A stretch of DNA of 32,814 bases, taken from assembly GCA_017642485.1 (NCBI GenBank), contig JAGCPC010000016.1, positions 1 to 32,814 of the forward strand, given 5' to 3'. The translations under genes were made by a program, and so were the position numbers. Shown here piece by piece: positions 3,162 through 19,307 of the stretch. How positions within the stretch are numbered: position 1 is the first letter of the stretch; every line of letters begins with the position of its first letter. Source of the stretch: Prevotella sp. GTDB lineage: Bacteria; Bacteroidota; Bacteroidia; Bacteroidales; Bacteroidaceae. The notes beneath the pieces were generated by a model. It did not search any database and was not told where the DNA came from. It saw nothing but the letters and a program-made list of their open reading frames with translations.

Positions 3162-5414
3162 TTCCACTATCGTAAAGTCAAGTTGTTTTTTCTCCAAATT
3201 AGCCTTTGCCACCTTTATGCGCACCTCGTCGCCCAGTTGGTAGCGGTTATGATGGCGACGTCCCACGAGGCAGAAGTTCTTCTCATCAAACTCATAGTAG
3301 TCGTCCTTCAAGTCATGTATCGCTATCATACCCTCGCAGTGATTTTCATCGATTTCAGCGTATATTCCGTGGCTTGTGATACCCGATACGTGAGCATCAT
3401 ACTCCTCGCCGAGGTGTTCGCCCATAAACTCCACCATCTTGTACTTTATAGAGTCACGCTCAGCATTGGCAGCCACCTGTTCCATCTGGCTGGAATGCTC
3501 GCACTGTTCCTCGTAATAGTTCTGGTTGGCACTCTTTCCTCCCTCCTCGTAGCGTGTCAGCAGTCTGTGCACCATGGTGTCGGGGTAGCGTCGTATGGGC
3601 GACGTGAAGTGCGTGTAGTAGTCAAATGCCAGTCCGAAGTGTCCTATGTTGTGCGTGCTATACTTCGCCTTCATCATAGCCTTCAGCGCCACGAGTTGTA
3701 TGGCATTGCTCTCTGCCCTACCCTCAAACTCGTCCATCAGCGCATTGATAGCACGTGCCGTAGCGCCCTTGGTGCTTGTTGACTTCATCCTGTATCCGAA
3801 GCGCACTACAAACTGTTTCAGCTGTTCCATCTTGATAGGGTCAGGATTGTCGTGCACGCGATATGGCAATGTCTTCGCCTTCTTACCCTTAGGCACCTTG
3901 CCCACGCTCTCCGCCACCGTCTTGTTGGCTATGAGCATAAACTCCTCTATGAGTTTGTTGGCATCCTTTGAGCGCTTGAAATACACCCTTGTCGGCTTGC
4001 CCTTCTCGTCGATGTCGAAGCGCATCTCCTCACGGTCAAACTTCACCGAACCGTTCTTGAATCTCTTTGCCCTTAGTTTCTTGGCGAGGGCATCGAGGGT
4101 GATGAGTTCCTTAGCATATTCGCCCTCATACTCCTTTTTCTTTGGTGCAGGCTCGCCTGTGCCGTCCTTCACCCCGTTCTTCTCAAGTATCTCCTGCACC
4201 TCTTCGTAGCAGAAGCGGCGGTCGCTCCTTATCACCGTGTGCACTATACGGTAGTCCTTTATCTCCGCCTCCTCGTCCATGGTGAATATCACCGAGTAGG
4301 CCAGTTTGTCCTCGTCGGGCCTCAGCGAACAGATATAGTTGCACAGTCTCTCGGGCAGCATCGGTATCGTCCTGTCCACGAGGTATATGCTCGTAGCCCT
4401 CTTCTGTGCCTCCTTGTCTATTATCGATCCCTCAGTCACGTAGTGGCTCACATCAGCGATATGCACACCCACCTCCCACAACTTTTTCGGTTCACAGTGC
4501 TCAGTGCTCAGTTCACAGTTAGAGTTATCGTTAAGGTTATGGTTAAGGTTAACCTCCCTTATACTCAGCGCATCGTCAAAGTCCTTGGCATCATGCGGAT
4601 CTATCGTACATGTAAATACCCCACGAAAATCCTCTCTGCGGTCTATCTCCTCCTGTGTTATCTGGTCGCTTATCTTGTTTGCGGCATCCTCCACAGCCTG
4701 CGGATACTTATACGGCAGTCCATACTGAGCCAGTATAGCATTCATCTCAGCGTTGTTTTCGCCCATTTCACCGAGTATATCCACCACTTCCGCCAGTATG
4801 TTGCGGTGCTCGGCATCAGGCCATGCCACTACCTTCACCACAGCACGGTCGTTGGTCTTGCCACCCTTGAGTTTCGACTTAGGTATTATGATACTCATCG
4901 CCAGTGGCTCCTGAGGTATGAGGAATGCGAGGTCGCTGTCCACCTCCAGTCTGCCCACAAACTGTTCCTTCTTTCTCTCTATAATCTCTATCACCTGCGC
5001 CTCGCGTATATGGCTACGTCGGCGTGCCATCATGCAGAAGCGCACCCTGTCGCCTGTCAGTGCCCATAGCGAATTTCTCTCCGCTACAAATATAGGTTTC
5101 TCGCTACCAACGGGCGTCACCGTATTGCGTCCGTTGGCCTTAGCCTGGAACACGCCCTCCATCACCTGTGTGCTGTCCGCCAGTTTATACGATGAGTCCG
5201 TCACTTTTACCAGGTAGTCATCCCATGCCATCTCCTCCATGATGTCTATGGCGAGCATCTTCATGGGGTGCGTGTCGAGTTTCAGTTGTCTGAATATCTC
5301 CTTGAACGACACTACCTGTCCTGGACGGTTGTTAAAGAACGCCTCCAGTTTCTCTGCCAGCAGCGGCCTCGTGATTCTCTTGCCGCCCTTCTTTTCTCTT
5401 GTTTTCTTTCCCAT
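3159..5414 (-). CDS. rnr: Ribonuclease R
   Basis: This is a 3'-5' exoribonuclease of the RNase II/R family that degrades structured RNA. Visible in order: a basic N-terminus and winged-helix region (~15-80), two cold-shock-like domains (~85-235), the RNB catalytic core starting ~255 with the metal-binding aspartates in DPHDAKDFDDA (272-282), LRPDEDKLAYSV, the conserved FTSPIRRYPD, and a C-terminal S1 domain (~660-750). ATG 5414. About 25 residues (~287-311), directly after the aspartate motif and before LWEVGVHIADVSHY, are encoded by GGTTAA and AACTGTG repeats and are not expected in the family. The gap to the S41 gene upstream contains a hairpin array. Identification is secure; activity with the insert is an assumption. 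Confidence 0.95.
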   Translation of the reverse strand: MGKKTREKKGGKRITRPLLAEKLEAFFNNRPGQVVSFKEIFRQLKLDTHPMKMLAIDIMEEMAWDDYLVKVTDSSYKLADSTQVMEGVFQAKANGRNTVTPVGSEKPIFVAERNSLWALTGDRVRFCMMARRRSHIREAQVIEIIERKKEQFVGRLEVDSDLAFLIPQEPLAMSIIIPKSKLKGGKTNDRAVVKVVAWPDAEHRNILAEVVDILGEMGENNAEMNAILAQYGLPYKYPQAVEDAANKISDQITQEEIDRREDFRGVFTCTIDPHDAKDFDDALSIREVNLNHNLNDNSNCELSTEHCEPKKLWEVGVHIADVSHYVTEGSIIDKEAQKRATSIYLVDRTIPMLPERLCNYICSLRPDEDKLAYSVIFTMDEEAEIKDYRIVHTVIRSDRRFCYEEVQEILEKNGVKDGTGEPAPKKKEYEGEYAKELITLDALAKKLRAKRFKNGSVKFDREEMRFDIDEKGKPTRVYFKRSKDANKLIEEFMLIANKTVAESVGKVPKGKKAKTLPYRVHDNPDPIKMEQLKQFVVRFGYRMKSTSTKGATARAINALMDEFEGRAESNAIQLVALKAMMKAKYSTHNIGHFGLAFDYYTHFTSPIRRYPDTMVHRLLTRYEEGGKSANQNYYEEQCEHSSQMEQVAANAERDSIKYKMVEFMGEHLGEEYDAHVSGITSHGIYAEIDENHCEGMIAIHDLKDDYYEFDEKNFCLVGRRHHNRYQLGDEVRIKVAKANLEKKQLDFTIVE
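4493..4557. repeat. Repeat insertion inside the RNase R catalytic domain
   Basis: Two families are joined: CAGTGCTCAGT/TTCACAGT units (4494-4528) followed by GTTAAGGTTAtGGTTAAGG hexamers (4530-4555). The block is a multiple of three overall and is translated as residues ~287-311 of RNase R. Confidence 0.75.
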
Positions 5415-13547: not shown

Positions 13548-14471
13548 TTATTCTCCATATTTTGAAGCTATTTCTTTAAATATAATAGCCTTCTCCAAGA
13601 ACCAATTATAGGCCTTTTGCCATTTCTCACGTTTCTTGGGATTGATATTGGTTGTTATGAAGACACGACATGCTTTCTTTGCTTCTCTCCATTCCACCTC
13701 ACTATTCAACATTTTCGAGATTTCGTCTTTATATTTTTTGAACTGCTCAAACCGTTCTTTGTCATCATTGATGTAAATCTCTGCACCTATGCTTTGCTTC
13801 TGGGTATTGATAGTCAATCCTAAATGATAGGCAGAACTACCAATACTTAAATCATACCAATGTTGGGCAGAAGCCTTACGAGCACGAAAATGATGTTTAA
13901 ACTCTTCATTATTACTCATAGCGTCATTAAAGCCTGTCCAGAACTCAAGTTTCAACAATTCAGTATCTGAAAGTCCATCTATTGTTTTCATCGTCTTTGA
14001 CCAATCATTCGGTTTTTCAACGATGTTAAAACGTGGGGCTTTCATAGAATCACCAATCTGCCACAACTCTATCTCCAGTAGGAAAAAACAGATGTTGCTA
14101 TCAGTATGTTGATTTAACCATTCTATAGCTTGACGATGCTCATCGCGTGCTCGCTTTACTACCCATATTATTATCTCTGCTCCTTTACCTGAGGCATAGG
14201 TAATTAGTTTACCAAGATGATCATGATTAGTGTCCTCCAATTGATTCTCTATGATAACACGCCTATTGGTACCAACCTCTTTTGCAAAGATATCCACATT
14301 GAAACTCCCAACAGACGATTCTCTTTCTTCCAATTCCAGTTCAAGATCTATTGCATCACTCAGCAACGCAAGATTATCTTCTTGCGCCAACCACTTCGTG
14401 AAATCATTAGCCTCATGATGCCATACAGACCTCAAATCGGTTATTCTTATCATCTTACCTAACTTATCCAT
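13548..14471 (-). CDS. DUF4268 / nuclease-like protein
   Basis: The N-terminal half resembles a PD-(D/E)xK nuclease fold: VDIFAKE (metal-binding Asp candidate) followed by RRVIIENQLEDTNHDHLGKLITYASG, where the usual E-x-K reads ENQ, and IIWVVKRARDEHRQAIEWLN. The C-terminal half matches DUF4268 (FWTGFNDAM, WYDLSIGSSAYHLGLTIN, AEIYINDDKERFEQFKKYKDEI). Such proteins occur near restriction or defence genes and are not well characterised. ATG 14471; a downstream ATG (MIRITDL) is an equally good start. The ENQ variant is known in nuclease-like families, so activity cannot be excluded or assumed. Confidence 0.75.
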   Translation of the reverse strand: MDKLGKMIRITDLRSVWHHEANDFTKWLAQEDNLALLSDAIDLELELEERESSVGSFNVDIFAKEVGTNRRVIIENQLEDTNHDHLGKLITYASGKGAEIIIWVVKRARDEHRQAIEWLNQHTDSNICFFLLEIELWQIGDSMKAPRFNIVEKPNDWSKTMKTIDGLSDTELLKLEFWTGFNDAMSNNEEFKHHFRARKASAQHWYDLSIGSSAYHLGLTINTQKQSIGAEIYINDDKERFEQFKKYKDEISKMLNSEVEWREAKKACRVFITTNINPKKREKWQKAYNWFLEKAIIFKEIASKYGE

Positions 14472-16148: not shown

Positions 16149-16556
16149 TCACATATTGATATACTTTACTGGATTGGCTGAGCGACCATAGTATTCTTTC
16201 ACGCTTTTACCAATGTAGTCGCTTTGGCAATCCTCTTCGCCTACAAACTCGCATCGACCTGCATGTTTAGGATTGTCAGTGATTTTCCATTTCTCAGGCA
16301 GATAGACAGTCTTTACCACTCCGTCAACAATAGCCAACACATGAGTAGCCTTAGAAGCCCTGCTTAGAGTAGCTTTCCAATATTTGCGTGTCATTTCATA
16401 AAGGTTTTCACGTTTTACCTTTCCTACCTTTACACACATTATTCTGTCTTGAGGTTTAGGGATTAGCCTTTCTGTTTTATAGGTTTTATCTTCATTCATA
16501 ATTTGTTCGTCTGCTATAAAGGGTAGAGCCACTATATGTAGATTGTATTTAGCCAT
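16149..16556 (-). CDS. Hypothetical protein downstream of the methyltransferase
   Basis: A 135-residue soluble protein. The pattern YWKATLSRASKATHVLAIVDGVV, then W-KITDNP, GRCEFVGEE, YIGKSV and SANPVKYI is strongly structured and I associate it loosely with small modified-base or ligand-binding modules near nuclease genes; I cannot name the family. ATG 16556. It has its own promoter (second copy of the duplicated operator) just behind the methyltransferase stop. After the stop, another frame stays open for ~40 codons and ends TIKLLDIEKFAEDRDEGE, so a frameshift may have shortened it. Confidence 0.65.
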   Translation of the reverse strand: MAKYNLHIVALPFIADEQIMNEDKTYKTERLIPKPQDRIMCVKVGKVKRENLYEMTRKYWKATLSRASKATHVLAIVDGVVKTVYLPEKWKITDNPKHAGRCEFVGEEDCQSDYIGKSVKEYYGRSANPVKYINM

Positions 16557-16618: not shown

Positions 16619-16688
16619 GATTTGCAAAGTTATAAAAAATCCTGTCAACTCACAACTTTTTGACAGGATAATTTTTCACTTTAACATT
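16619..16688 (-). promoter_or_regulatory. Duplicated promoter/operator, copy 2
   Basis: A perfect dyad, ATCCTGTCAA and TTGACAGGAT with 11 bp between, sits behind a perfect minus-strand -7 box TAACTTTG (16625-16632), reading towards the 135-aa gene. The outer 13 bp overlap the last codons of the methyltransferase. About 64 of 70 positions match copy 1 by eye. Confidence 0.7.
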
Positions 16689-17605
16689 ACATTGACTTTC
16701 TTTAGCCGCTCTTCGTATTCGCTCCTAATAGAGATATTCTCTATCTCCTCACGTCGAGCCTTGCTCAGGTTCAGGAAATCATTCTCAATCTCAAGTCCCA
16801 GATAACTTCTGTCGAGCAGATTGGCAGCTATACCCGTTGTGCTACTGCCTGCGAAGGGGTCAAGTATCCATGCACCCTCCTTGGTGCTTGCCTGGATAAT
16901 GCGAGCAAGCAGGGGAAGAGGCTTTTGAGTTGGGTGCTTGCCACATGACTTTTCCCATCTACCTATGGCTGGCAGTCGCCAAACGTCAGTCATCTGTTTG
17001 TCACCATTCAGCTGCTTCATCAGTTCGTAGTTGTAGTAGTGAGGCACTTTGGCTGATTTTCTTGCCCATATCACGAACTCCGTTGAATAGGTAAAATATC
17101 GGCAAGTAATGTTTGGAGGCGGATTAGTCTTCGCCCAGGTTATCACGTTGAGTATCTTGAAGCCGAGCTTCAGCAGTTGCTGTTGCACACTGAAGATATT
17201 ATGATGGGTGCCTGAAATCCATATCGTGGCATCGTCCTTCATGTGGTCTCGGCAAGCGCTGAGCCACCTGAAGTTGAACCTATCCATCGCCTCAGGAGTA
17301 GTAGGCTTATCCCATTCACCCTTGTTCACGCATACCACCTTTCCGTTTTGGCATGATATGCCACCGCCTGAAAGGAAATAAGGTGGGTCGGCAAACACCA
17401 TATCAAAGCCGAACTTGAACTTTGATAGAGTGTCAACACAGTCGCCTTTGACCAGCGTAAAGTCGTTGTTGGGAGATTTGTAGAAGAGTTTAGGTTCAAG
17501 ATTACGATAACGATAACGCACCGCCTCCTCTGCTTTTTTAGCAGAAGACGCTTTAACATGCTCTGTGCGAGACAATGTTTCGGTTATCGTTACTCTGAAA
17601 TCCAT
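16676..17605 (-). CDS. DpnA-like adenine-specific DNA methyltransferase with DpnD-like N-terminus
   Basis: The catalytic motif DPPY is at 73-76 and the SAM-binding motif DPFAGSSTTG at 249-258, the order of beta-class enzymes. Many blocks recall DpnA (M.DpnIIB), which methylates A in GATC and accepts single strands: YFLSGGGIS, WISGTHHNI, WAKTNPPPNITCRYFTYSTE, HYYNYELMKQLNG and GKHPTQKP. The first ~38 residues (FRVTITETLSRTEHVKASS) look like a DpnD/PcfM domain, so this may be a fusion. ATG 17605, 93 bp after dpnI on the same strand, with its own TACTTTTG box and four GATC sites around it. Specificity is inferred: a GANTC-type target cannot be ruled out. See findings for the conflict with DpnI. 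Confidence 0.88.
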   Translation of the reverse strand: MDFRVTITETLSRTEHVKASSAKKAEEAVRYRYRNLEPKLFYKSPNNDFTLVKGDCVDTLSKFKFGFDMVFADPPYFLSGGGISCQNGKVVCVNKGEWDKPTTPEAMDRFNFRWLSACRDHMKDDATIWISGTHHNIFSVQQQLLKLGFKILNVITWAKTNPPPNITCRYFTYSTEFVIWARKSAKVPHYYNYELMKQLNGDKQMTDVWRLPAIGRWEKSCGKHPTQKPLPLLARIIQASTKEGAWILDPFAGSSTTGIAANLLDRSYLGLEIENDFLNLSKARREEIENISIRSEYEERLKKVNVMLK

Positions 17606-17625
17606 TGCAGCCTTTAATTCGGCTG

Positions 17626-17695
17626 CAAAAGTAAGATCATTTTTTCAAAAAAATGGGATTAGATCATTCTTTAATATTTGTGATCAAAAATGATC
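17626..17695 (-). promoter_or_regulatory. Methyltransferase promoter with four GATC sites
   Basis: The minus-strand -7 box TACTTTTG (17626-17633) is directly abutted by GATC at 17635. More GATC sites stand at 17662, 17682 and 17692. Three share the context AATGATC on the minus strand. The region separates the dpnI stop from the methyltransferase start. Confidence 0.7.
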
Positions 17696-17698
17696 ATT

Positions 17699-18475
17699 TC
17701 AACGTATCTTACGATAGTTACCATTACCCTTAAACGTAATAAATCCCTTATCACGCAAGAACTGCAGTTGCTGACGTATCTTTGCATCGACGTTATTGTT
17801 ATCAGGGTGTTTACGTTGCAGTTCAGCAATGAAAGCATAAACATCATCTGTACAGAAATTGTCAGTCGGTATTCTGTCTATGCACTTCAATACGTCAAGC
17901 ATCCAGCCTCTCGTCTCCAGTCTCGATGTTTGCAGTGAAAGCGAACGCTGGTAGAGGTCTATGACGTGCGACTTGTCTTCCTGCTTGCTGTTGCGAATAA
18001 TGAAAATCCTGCCACTCTCAGGTATGTTGCCAATTTCAATGTTGCACCCAACCCAACCAGCACGTCTGGCAGAGTCAGCCAGAGGTTTTCTTTTCTCAAT
18101 AATGCTGGGAGTGAAAAAGAAGTTGGGGATAATCATAAGGTTGTTCACCTGCCAATCAGCGTATGTCATAACAAACAGATGAGGATTCCTCAGCGATGTG
18201 ATGCGGTCAATCATGGTAGCGTAAGCCCCGTCTGCAATCTTTTGGCTCACTTTAGCAGTCTTGCTCTCCTTGCTTTTGAGTTCAAAATCTGACTTGCAAT
18301 CGTCACAAAAGAAATCAGCCACAGGCTTGTTAGCCTCATAGTGACCTAACACAGGAGCACCACATATAGGGCAAAACATATTCCTTGCCATCCAATCCTC
18401 CGTCACCACGCGCGAAATCTGCGAACCACTGTGGTAGCCCTCTGCCAGCTGTGGATTAAATTGCAAGTTCATCAT
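17699..18475 (-). CDS. dpnI: DpnI-family methyl-directed restriction endonuclease
   Basis: The protein matches S. pneumoniae DpnI from end to end as I remember it: 258 residues, SRVVTEDWMARN, Zn-binding cysteines 35, 38, 57 and 60, the PD-(D/E)xK residues D54 and E65-x-K67 in VADFF...DFELKSKE, INDG-like ADGAYATMIDR, KRKPLADSARRAGWVGCNIE at 128-147, and a winged-helix end (KIRQQLQFLRDKGFITFKG). DpnI cuts GATC only when the adenine is methylated, using both the catalytic and winged-helix domains to read m6A. The start, ATG 18475, overlaps the vapC stop as TAATG; ATG 18472 is a second option. No key residue is missing, so an active enzyme is expected. Confidence 0.93.
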   Translation of the reverse strand: MMNLQFNPQLAEGYHSGSQISRVVTEDWMARNMFCPICGAPVLGHYEANKPVADFFCDDCKSDFELKSKESKTAKVSQKIADGAYATMIDRITSLRNPHLFVMTYADWQVNNLMIIPNFFFTPSIIEKRKPLADSARRAGWVGCNIEIGNIPESGRIFIIRNSKQEDKSHVIDLYQRSLSLQTSRLETRGWMLDVLKCIDRIPTDNFCTDDVYAFIAELQRKHPDNNNVDAKIRQQLQFLRDKGFITFKGNGNYRKIR

Positions 18476-18882
18476 TAGTTCTGCGTATTTCTCCAGTTCT
18501 CTATTTCAAGACCTTCAATGCGCTCAAAATGTTTTTCATTTGATGTTACCAAAGTCATGCCATAATGCTTTGCCGTTGCCCCAATTAGTAAATCAAACTG
18601 GTCAATGCGTAAGCCTCTATGCTCAAGACTATAGCGTATTTCACCATATTCACGAAAAGAAGGATAAGCAGGAAGCACCTTGAATAAACGCTGAACATGC
18701 TTTATATCCTCCAACTTATTCTTTTTTTGCTCAGACTTTGCTAAACCAAAGTATAGCTCAGCTAAAGTAATCTCTGAAATGTAGCAGTTCTTAGTACCGA
18801 CTTTCAGAAGGGTCTCGCGCACCTTACCTTCATTTCGAAACATGGAGATACAAACGCACGTGTCAAGGAGATATTTTTTCAT
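18475..18882 (-). CDS. vapC: VapC-type PIN-domain toxin ribonuclease
   Basis: A PIN-domain protein with the acidic active-site residues in place: D7 (YLLDTCV), E42 (ITLAELYFG) and D97 (DQFDLLIGATA), plus the terminal TSNEKHFERIEGLEIENW. VapC toxins cut tRNA or rRNA when freed from VapB. It starts 8 bp after the antitoxin gene and its TAA overlaps the dpnI ATG by one base, so toxin and endonuclease are translationally coupled. ATG 18882. The target RNA is unknown. Confidence 0.9.
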   Translation of the reverse strand: MKKYLLDTCVCISMFRNEGKVRETLLKVGTKNCYISEITLAELYFGLAKSEQKKNKLEDIKHVQRLFKVLPAYPSFREYGEIRYSLEHRGLRIDQFDLLIGATAKHYGMTLVTSNEKHFERIEGLEIENWRNTQN

Positions 18883-18890
18883 CTTTTTTA

Positions 18891-19139
18891 CTACCAGTCT
18901 TCCACAGTCCTTGTACTTACCACATTTTCACTACGAAGCATATCAGCATACTCCTCCGTACTCATTCCTTCTCCCCAGTCAGAGGAAAAATGAGCGAAGA
19001 TGGTTTCCGTTTCCTTTTTTGGTGTGACAGCATCCTTCATTGATTTAGCCAGTTTCGTTATTAAATCAATTTTCACTTCCCTTGGCAGTGTACCAAGCAT
19101 ATCCATATATATGTCACTTACGTTTATTGTTCCTACCAT
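18891..19139 (-). CDS. vapB: VapB-like antitoxin
   Basis: An 82-residue protein in front of VapC. The helix LPREVKIDLITKLAKSMKDA and the C-terminal WGEGMSTEEYADMLRSENVVSTRTVEDW match small antitoxins whose tail wraps the PIN-domain toxin. The N-terminus would form the dimer and possibly bind DNA. ATG 19139; promoter box TAATTTTG at 19162-19169. First gene of the vapB-vapC-dpnI operon. Confidence 0.8.
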   Translation of the reverse strand: MVGTINVSDIYMDMLGTLPREVKIDLITKLAKSMKDAVTPKKETETIFAHFSSDWGEGMSTEEYADMLRSENVVSTRTVEDW

Positions 19140-19208: not shown

Positions 19209-19307
19209 TTACATTTTATCAAAGTCAGCTGGTAATAATCTCTCCAGTTGTTCGATGAGCTGACCCTTGCCGCCAACCCACTTGATAAAAGGTTTTGCCT
19301 TAGCCAT
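19209..19307 (-). pseudogene. N-terminal fragment of a Dam/DpnM-type (D12 class) adenine methyltransferase
   Basis: A 32-codon frame starts with ATG 19307 and reads KPFIKWVGGKGQLIEQL, then LLPADFDKM and TAA. The K-W-(A/V)-G-G-K element is the start of SAM motif I of D12-class GATC methyltransferases, where it is normally followed by YEPFVGGG after the DFD segment. Here the gene stops exactly there and the vapB promoter follows. It retains its own promoter box at 19326-19333. The rest of the enzyme (DPPY motif) is missing, so no activity is expected. At 32 residues the match is short, but it sits beside dpnI, which raises my confidence. Confidence 0.75.

Follow-up and report, generated by a model that had tools for sequence, protein, structure and literature searches.

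Organization of the locus

Analysis of the window (the whole stretch of 32,814 nucleotides of Prevotella sp. DNA) revealed on the minus strand the order dam stub, 82-aa ORF, VapC-type toxin gene, DpnI gene, 93-bp gap, DpnD::M2 gene and 135-aa ORF. The stub (19209..19307) is the N-terminal part of a Dam/DpnM (D12) methylase gene, 32 codons long and with its own start codon and stop. The 82-aa ORF (18891..19139) matched no family above cut-off in the domain and profile searches and is, by position alone, a possible antitoxin partner of the adjoining VapC-type PIN ribonuclease (18475..18882; PIN, 4e-18), the protein of which was matched by VapC models at up to 2e-32, under those models' own cut-offs. 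Position 18475 is both the final base of the vapC-type gene and the first base of dpnI (17699..18475), which codes for a DpnI-family endonuclease with a catalytic and a winged-helix domain. The next gene (16676..17605) codes for a DpnD-like N-terminus fused to a DpnA-type beta-class adenine methyltransferase, here called M2. The 135-aa protein (16149..16556) gave a partial match to PADLOC PD-T4-3 (7e-12), and tblastn searches of loci L233 and L013 showed that a relative of this ORF also lies 3' of M2 in L233.

An earlier note on this DNA had described an intact DpnI and an intact DpnA-like methyltransferase in tandem on the same strand, and both reading frames were found open over the coordinates given above with DpnI upstream; it mentioned neither the upstream dam stub nor the GATC cluster between the two genes. 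The source genome is a draft of 193 contigs that is 79% complete, so the absence of genes from the rest of it is provisional. The low-GC region at ~13-20 kb of the window has the appearance of a defence island, and a DUF4268 protein encoded at 13548-14471 (minus strand) matched the PADLOC candidate defence family PDC-S11 (1e-117).

The DpnI endonuclease

The DpnI protein matched Pfam DpnI (3e-78) and DpnI_C (2e-32) and aligned with the solved R.DpnI over its whole length (residues 2-257, E 6e-79). Comparison with the catalytic and methyl-binding cleft residues of R.DpnI, taken from the accessible part of PMC4117772, indicated that D53, E64 and K66 of the PD-(D/E)XK domain, the methyl-pocket residues L129, R135, W138 and G140 and the C-terminal winged helix are all retained. 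The same catalytic and methyl-pocket residues were kept in 83 of 85 DpnI loci (mostly the best 80 of 518, two of the loci being one contig), which had partly been picked by RAGWxGCN, one of two search patterns, covering part of the cleft. With its methyl pocket intact, the enzyme is predicted to be Gm6ATC-specific.

A viral scan with the single window DpnI protein yielded zero relatives, and a scan with the DpnI alignment yielded five partial matches to the C-terminal part only. The phage search gave no match reaching 60% identity and the plasmid search gave six records; the matches in phage contigs L179-L183 and in Lactiplantibacillus plasmids (hits H18-H21) were confined to the winged-helix part of DpnI.

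The M2 methyltransferase

The protein METHYLTRANSFERASE (M2) matched N6_N4_Mtase (1e-54) and carries the DPPY and DPF-GS-TTG motifs of a beta-class N6_N4 methylase, while its N-terminus, about residues 3-36, gave a truncated match to DpnD-PcfM over 34 of the 46 model positions. Identity of M2 to its counterparts in two Dam-DpnII cassettes was 84-85% (L047) and 81-82% (L050); the middle genes of the Dam-M2-DpnII cassettes of streptococci (L245-L251) were 52-57% identical to it. In the genus of Streptococcus anginosus J4206, seven of 58 genomes had an M2 match, and all seven loci were arranged Dam - M2 - DpnII, the same order as dpnM-dpnA-dpnB in the pneumococcal cassette. M2 was full-length in 23 of 24 checked loci with an M2 relative (four viral loci and 20 of 37 listed places) and had both Dam and DpnII genes no more than 5 kb away in 15 of these 23; the middle gene of the L060 cassette was verified as DpnII by Pfam (PF04556, 5e-99).

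By identity, tree position and neighbourhood M2 is close to the methylases of Dam-DpnII cassettes. Judged from sequence it is a relative of DpnA, and the name DpnA-like used in the earlier note was well chosen; its membership among GATC-cassette methylases makes GATC its likely target. The nearest solved structure is CcrM (E 2e-52), the target of which is GANTC. M2 as a simple CcrM orphan was considered and set aside, CcrM being merely the nearest solved structure and DpnA homologs having been found in the streptococcal cassettes. The proposal that the DpnD fusion changes target choice was likewise abandoned, since the tree intermingled the cores of fused M2 with unfused M2 from DpnII cassettes.

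Of 97 near-invariant columns in an alignment with 34 relatives the window M2 retains 96; the dN branch leading to it was 0.054 long and that of a DpnII-linked relative 0.063. By columns and dN branch, M2 shows no sign of decay. The DpnI-linked sisters L123 and L135 have diverged in M2 by a dN of 0.10, with synonymous sites saturated, and because of saturation no dN/dS number is given for the window M2. The lack of decay together with the L123/L135 divergence argues that M2 can stay under selection beside DpnI. None of the window's five nearest DpnI relatives among the matches listed (L099-L103) has an intact M2, so that the window M2 may be a recent arrival.

In L056 a DpnD::M2 gene without Dam within 5 kb adjoins a putative nuclease, an arrangement which suggests that M2 may protect duplex DNA. 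In L056:5703-6422 and L207:681-1415 this ~240-aa nuclease-like protein stands where DpnI would, ahead of the GATC element (see below) and DpnD::M2, and in L208:1681-2436 it is divergent to a broken M2. It had no Pfam match and, for L056, a weak match to PADLOC REase_II (5e-6); possibly it represents a new endonuclease family.

The dam stub and the DpnI/DpnII mosaic

The dam stub matched positions 3-35 of the 302 of the Dam profile (E 4e-11), and over 67-95 bp its DNA was 79-86% identical to the beginning of dam genes in relatives, the similarity starting at about the start codon. The locus thus has a 32-codon stub where a DpnII cassette has an intact Dam/DpnM; no DpnII profile match (PF04556) was found in the span that opens 4 kb before the window DpnI and closes 5 kb after it, and DpnI stands in the DpnII place. 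The profiles used for DpnII, Dam, M2 and DpnD had themselves been made from these relatives. Since Dam/DpnM, the main GATC methylase, is cut to a stub, the locus is best read as a DpnI/DpnII mosaic, with DpnI in a gutted DpnII cassette.

Other DpnI/DpnII mosaics exist. They were surveyed in 84 distinct DpnI loci: the 80 best of the 518 confirmed places, to which the window, L012, L013 and L016 were added. L015 and L014 were excluded as lying on the contigs of L107 and L118, respectively. A dam trace lay upstream in 26 of these 84 loci (16 stubs, 9 full and 1 frameshifted, where full denotes one unbroken match to 235 profile positions or more), and all 16 stubs were N-terminal. An M2 trace, counted at E<1e-8, lay downstream in 25, of which 10 were full, 12 fragments, 2 broken by frameshift or stop and 1 at a contig end; weaker matches are outside the 25. 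Over half of the 84 loci had neither trace. Both genes were intact in none of the 11 loci having both traces and both flanks, an exclusion that alone is not significant (one-sided Fisher about 0.12).

An apparently full Dam together with an intact DpnI was found in eight loci among the same 80 plus four, the full Dam of L158 and L170 reaching up to positions 250 and 243 of 302. Dam loss is therefore not a universal rule, and there must be further ways of tolerating the conflict. Five of these eight loci (L012, L112, L133, L142, L147) have an N-truncated M2 alongside. In Flavobacterium, Taibaiella and Sphingobacteriales drafts an apparently intact Dam gene ends a few bases from an intact DpnI (L133 5094-6780, L138 1891-3629, L142 5040-6780, L147 4997-6771), and these tight pairs are a sharper self-conflict than that of the window. 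In L012 a KilA-N protein (3488-4309), matching the PADLOC candidate PDC-S22 (2.5e-132), is encoded between dam and DpnI, with relatives in L013, L124 and L131.

The GATC element upstream of M2

The 93-bp gap between DpnI and M2 contains four GATC and zero GANTC. Three of the GATC sites form the element GATC-N6-GATC-N16-GATC (17662..17695, minus strand), with sites 10 and 20 bp apart or roughly one and two helical turns, and the fourth adjoins a TANNTTTG box (17626..17638, minus strand), which we take to be Bacteroidota -7-like. GATC is scarce in the source genome (212 in 226,176 bases sampled, observed/expected 0.27), where CTAG, GGCC and CCGG are likewise strongly avoided (0.07 to 0.28). Chance as the origin of the cluster was rejected by the probability of four GATC in 93 bp in place (Poisson P 2e-6) and by the recurring spacing. 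A short inverted repeat, GCAGCC-N8-GGCTGC, lies at 17607-17626 (minus strand), immediately 5' of the M2 start codon; L014 has another, different short stem in the same place.

Loci retrieved through protein similarity, together with samples of the source genome, amounted to 1.55 Mb; in these the GATC-N6-GATC-N16-GATC spacing occurred in 17 distinct contexts, two of which (L063, L182) differ in sequence from the others, and the next spacing class in 5. The bare spacing was present somewhere in 34 of 160 genus genomes (49 places), and among 29 loci fetched from these places (L207-L235) 20 had a Dam, DpnD or M2 match, doubtful for L224 and L228, and 9 had none. The order-wide pattern search returned 18 places in 17 of 393 genomes, as matched strings alone; in the order-wide and genus searches the control, a reversed pattern of CTAG words, was little informative. 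The six viral-contig matches to a stricter pattern were without Dam, M2, DpnD, DpnII or DpnI match.

In 20 of 26 contexts the TANNTTTG box followed within 45 nt of the element, and 8 of the 26 had a fourth GATC some 18-30 bp further on; as this consensus includes pattern-fetched loci, its information lies only in the promoter position and in letters other than those of GATC. An initial test for GATC clusters ahead of dam gave a contrary result, with 9 GATC against 8.2 expected in the 250 bp preceding dam-type hits of 22 loci; some of these hits are not true cassette dam, and the element often stands further upstream, before DpnD.

Nine loci have the arrangement DpnI - GATC element - M2; M2 is intact in eight of them (the window, L123, L127, L135, L143, L152, L217, where DpnD is nearly gone, and L233) and broken in L113. 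Among the loci fetched by similarity the element precedes all seven fused M2 identified (the window, L056, L123, L127, L135, L143 and L152), and it also precedes DpnD-Dam-DpnII, e.g. in L054 and L060; the GATC spacing is common to the M2 promoter and DpnII-cassette promoters. No GATC was present in the stretch read between the genes for the DpnI-linked M2 of L108, L115 and L163 (intact) and L159 (cut), and L118 has three GATC with other spacing. A promoter built of the sites that the cassette itself targets suggests a methylation feedback, and the element is a candidate methylation-sensing promoter common to DpnI and DpnII cassette types. In the open-access literature, subscription papers being mostly outside the scope of the search, no paper on the element was found. 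In L223:123-1502 a cytosine-5 methylase (PF00145, 2e-61) precedes the GATC element and DpnD::M2, a layout that brings to mind DpnIII of pneumococcus, an enzyme blocked by 5mC according to the accessible text of PMC12707154.

Phylogeny of M2 and DpnI

The tree of 35 M2 cores (L108 and L163 failed the length test and were left out) showed that the 10 DpnI-linked M2 need 9 label changes, at least 7 of them forced by well-supported branches, and shuffled labels need 8.8. In the DpnI tree of 85 rows the M2 label needs 11 changes against 14.1 when shuffled, and 5 of 500 shuffles were as low. This tree was based on the best 80 of 518 plus four, again without L015, minus L154 (broken DpnI) and plus L217 and L233, and its M2 label takes in L113 and L153 (broken) and L159 (cut). 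The clustering of the label on the DpnI tree indicates that the linkage is partly inherited with DpnI. We infer that DpnI and DpnII have swapped places many times around the same M2, and repeated exchange in place would have left the dam stubs and the shared M2 behind. In textbooks DpnI and DpnII exemplify immune systems that exclude each other, and at these loci one can ask in concrete terms how a cell gets through a switch between them.

Coexistence of DpnI and M2

Sequence comparisons established that dam is reduced to 32 codons, that DpnI and M2 are intact, that M2 belongs to the DpnA family and that the promoter GATC element is common with DpnII cassettes. The explanation to which we give, as a whole, an even chance is that of a DpnII-type cassette with DpnI in the endonuclease slot, Dam lost and M2 single-strand-preferring and conditional. 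Dam keeps chromosomal GATC methylated in DpnII cells; with the DpnI gene now filling the endonuclease slot of a Dam/DpnM - DpnII - DpnA cassette and Dam gone, the chromosome would carry no standing double-strand GATC methylation. M2 would still methylate the adenine of GATC, acting mainly on single-stranded DNA as does pneumococcal DpnA, and its expression would be conditional, governed by a promoter that senses whether its four GATC sites are methylated. Strands marked by M2 would give hemimethylated duplex, a poor DpnI substrate, and for that reason DpnI and M2 could coexist without standing methylation. M2 and the dam stub may persist partly because DpnI and DpnII cassettes recombine through their shared ends.

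Passages of PMC3573125 describe DpnA as a competence-induced single-strand methylase, and those available of PMC12707154 describe hemimethylated GATC as a poor substrate of DpnI. The portion of PMC5974420 at hand gives the efficiency of DpnA on ssDNA as greater than or similar to that on dsDNA, implying activity on duplex DNA too, which counts against the explanation. A Dam search at E 1e-10 in 12 genomes with DpnI and intact M2, most of them drafts, gave no match in seven (G522, G490, G554, G558, G560, G561, G562), a stub only in G552, two pieces of a frameshifted dam in G553, a shortened Dam in G563 and a full Dam beside DpnII, on another contig, in G559; in the source draft (G000) the only match was an AlwI-linked D12 methylase (E 5e-12). 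The L135 MAG also contains a Dam-DpnII pair, which counts against the explanation, as do the eight loci with Dam and DpnI both apparently intact, the L056 arrangement, the lack of an intact M2 in L099-L103, the weak statistics of the exclusion among 11 loci, the six viral-contig matches devoid of cassette genes and the DpnI-linked M2 of L108, L115, L163 and L159 that have no GATC in the stretch read ahead of them. It is nevertheless most likely that the cell has no standing conflict, and the conflict is apparent rather than shown: of the self-conflict proposed in the earlier note, the collision of predicted specificities stood, with the DpnI pocket intact and M2 among GATC-cassette methylases. 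The note's option of a methyltransferase turned on conditionally gains indirect support from the GATC-rich promoter that several cassettes have in common; the endonuclease as its executor is at most a conjecture.

It is less likely that M2 is a hitchhiker or silent gene, acquired by recent recombination with a DpnII cassette, useless beside DpnI and unexpressed or decaying. The M2 traces beside DpnI are fragments in 12 of 25 cases and broken in 2 more (best 80 of 518 plus four), the nearest DpnI relatives listed are without intact M2, and DpnI labels are scattered over the M2 tree; against this, the window M2 keeps all but one of the near-invariant columns on a dN branch no longer than that of its DpnII-linked relative, L123 and L135 differ by a dN of 0.10 at saturated synonymous sites, the element stands before every fused M2 identified among the similarity-fetched loci, and the M2 label is somewhat clustered on the DpnI tree. 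Another scheme, which we consider improbable, has M2 induced by a trigger such as foreign DNA that enters single-stranded or is replicating; M2 would methylate GATC on that DNA or genome-wide, and DpnI would then cut the marked DNA or kill the cell. Recurrence of the DpnI - GATC element - M2 order in nine loci, the retention of all methyl-sensing residues checked and the tightly spaced Dam-DpnI gene pairs would fit such a scheme, but M2 is often broken beside DpnI, and the strong toxicity of the DpnI-like FcyTI in Dam+ E. coli, as reported in the part of PMC11037411 consulted, means that leakage of M2 would be costly. A working two-gene defence, in which the promoter behind which DpnD::M2 stands senses GATC methylation through its phased element, M2 marks foreign DNA that is incoming or replicating and DpnI destroys it, is held to be just as doubtful; if true, the conflict itself would be the mechanism.

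Somewhat less credible still is the option, also raised in the earlier note, that M2 has another specificity or modifies another base and hence no conflict arises. CcrM as the nearest solved enzyme might favour it, and so might a second GATC-assigned methylase of Prevotella intermedia 17F which, cloned in E. coli, gave no DpnII/Sau3AI protection in the available account of PMC5608340; that enzyme is not equated with M2, and its behaviour would fit a single-strand enzyme. The option is not favoured: against it stand the grouping of M2 with GATC-cassette methylases, seen in its 81-85% identity to the M2 of L047 and L050 and the interleaved tree, the DpnA homology in streptococcal cassettes and the four GATC without GANTC in the promoter gap. 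An assembly or binning artefact joining two strain variants is very improbable: the window does come from a 193-contig draft, but other, independent assemblies have the order DpnI - GATC element - DpnD::M2 as well, among them that of an isolate, Prevotella cerevisiae DSM 100619 (L143).

The AlwI-linked methylases of G000 are a tandem pair of D12 methylases on contig 181 (21396-23214 and on; L002, L071) adjoining an AlwI-family endonuclease (PF09491, 6e-33). AlwI recognizes GGATC, and if these enzymes modify that sequence DpnI sites would arise; GGATC showed no avoidance in the source genome beyond that of GATC (O/E 1.23).

Comparison with known systems

Within the DpnI/DpnII cassette family the window locus is a new variant, of interest because it recurs, because dam stubs accompany it and because the GATC sites of its promoter are phased. 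A DpnI cassette of the pneumococcal type consists of DpnI and DpnD only, with no GATC methylase, and the window differs from it in that M2 is present and intact. The pneumococcal DpnI and DpnII cassettes have homologous DpnI, DpnM, DpnA, DpnII and DpnD parts and are alternatives of opposite GATC specificity, most isolates carrying one of them according to the accessible parts of PMC3573125 and PMC12707154; in contrast, the window has DpnI inside DpnII-cassette remnants, with DpnA kept and DpnD fused to it. Compared with DpnA (M2.DpnII), the single-strand GATC methylase to whose streptococcal middle-gene counterparts it is 52-57% identical, the window M2 has an N-terminal DpnD fusion, its own promoter with four GATC, a DpnI partner and a Dam stub.

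The dam replacing gene (drg) of Neisseria is a published precedent for part of the mosaic, being a DpnI-like gene inserted in dam, with dam truncated in some strains, as described in the passages at hand of PMC4269198; unlike at the window, those passages describe no DpnA-type methylase or GATC promoter element. FcyTI and HhiV4I, 6mA-dependent winged-helix fusions, are DpnI-like readers toxic in Dam+ cells, and in a survey of over 1,000 winged-helix fusions 87% were without a methyltransferase among the three genes on either side (both from the available portion of PMC11037411); the window locus would belong to the remainder.
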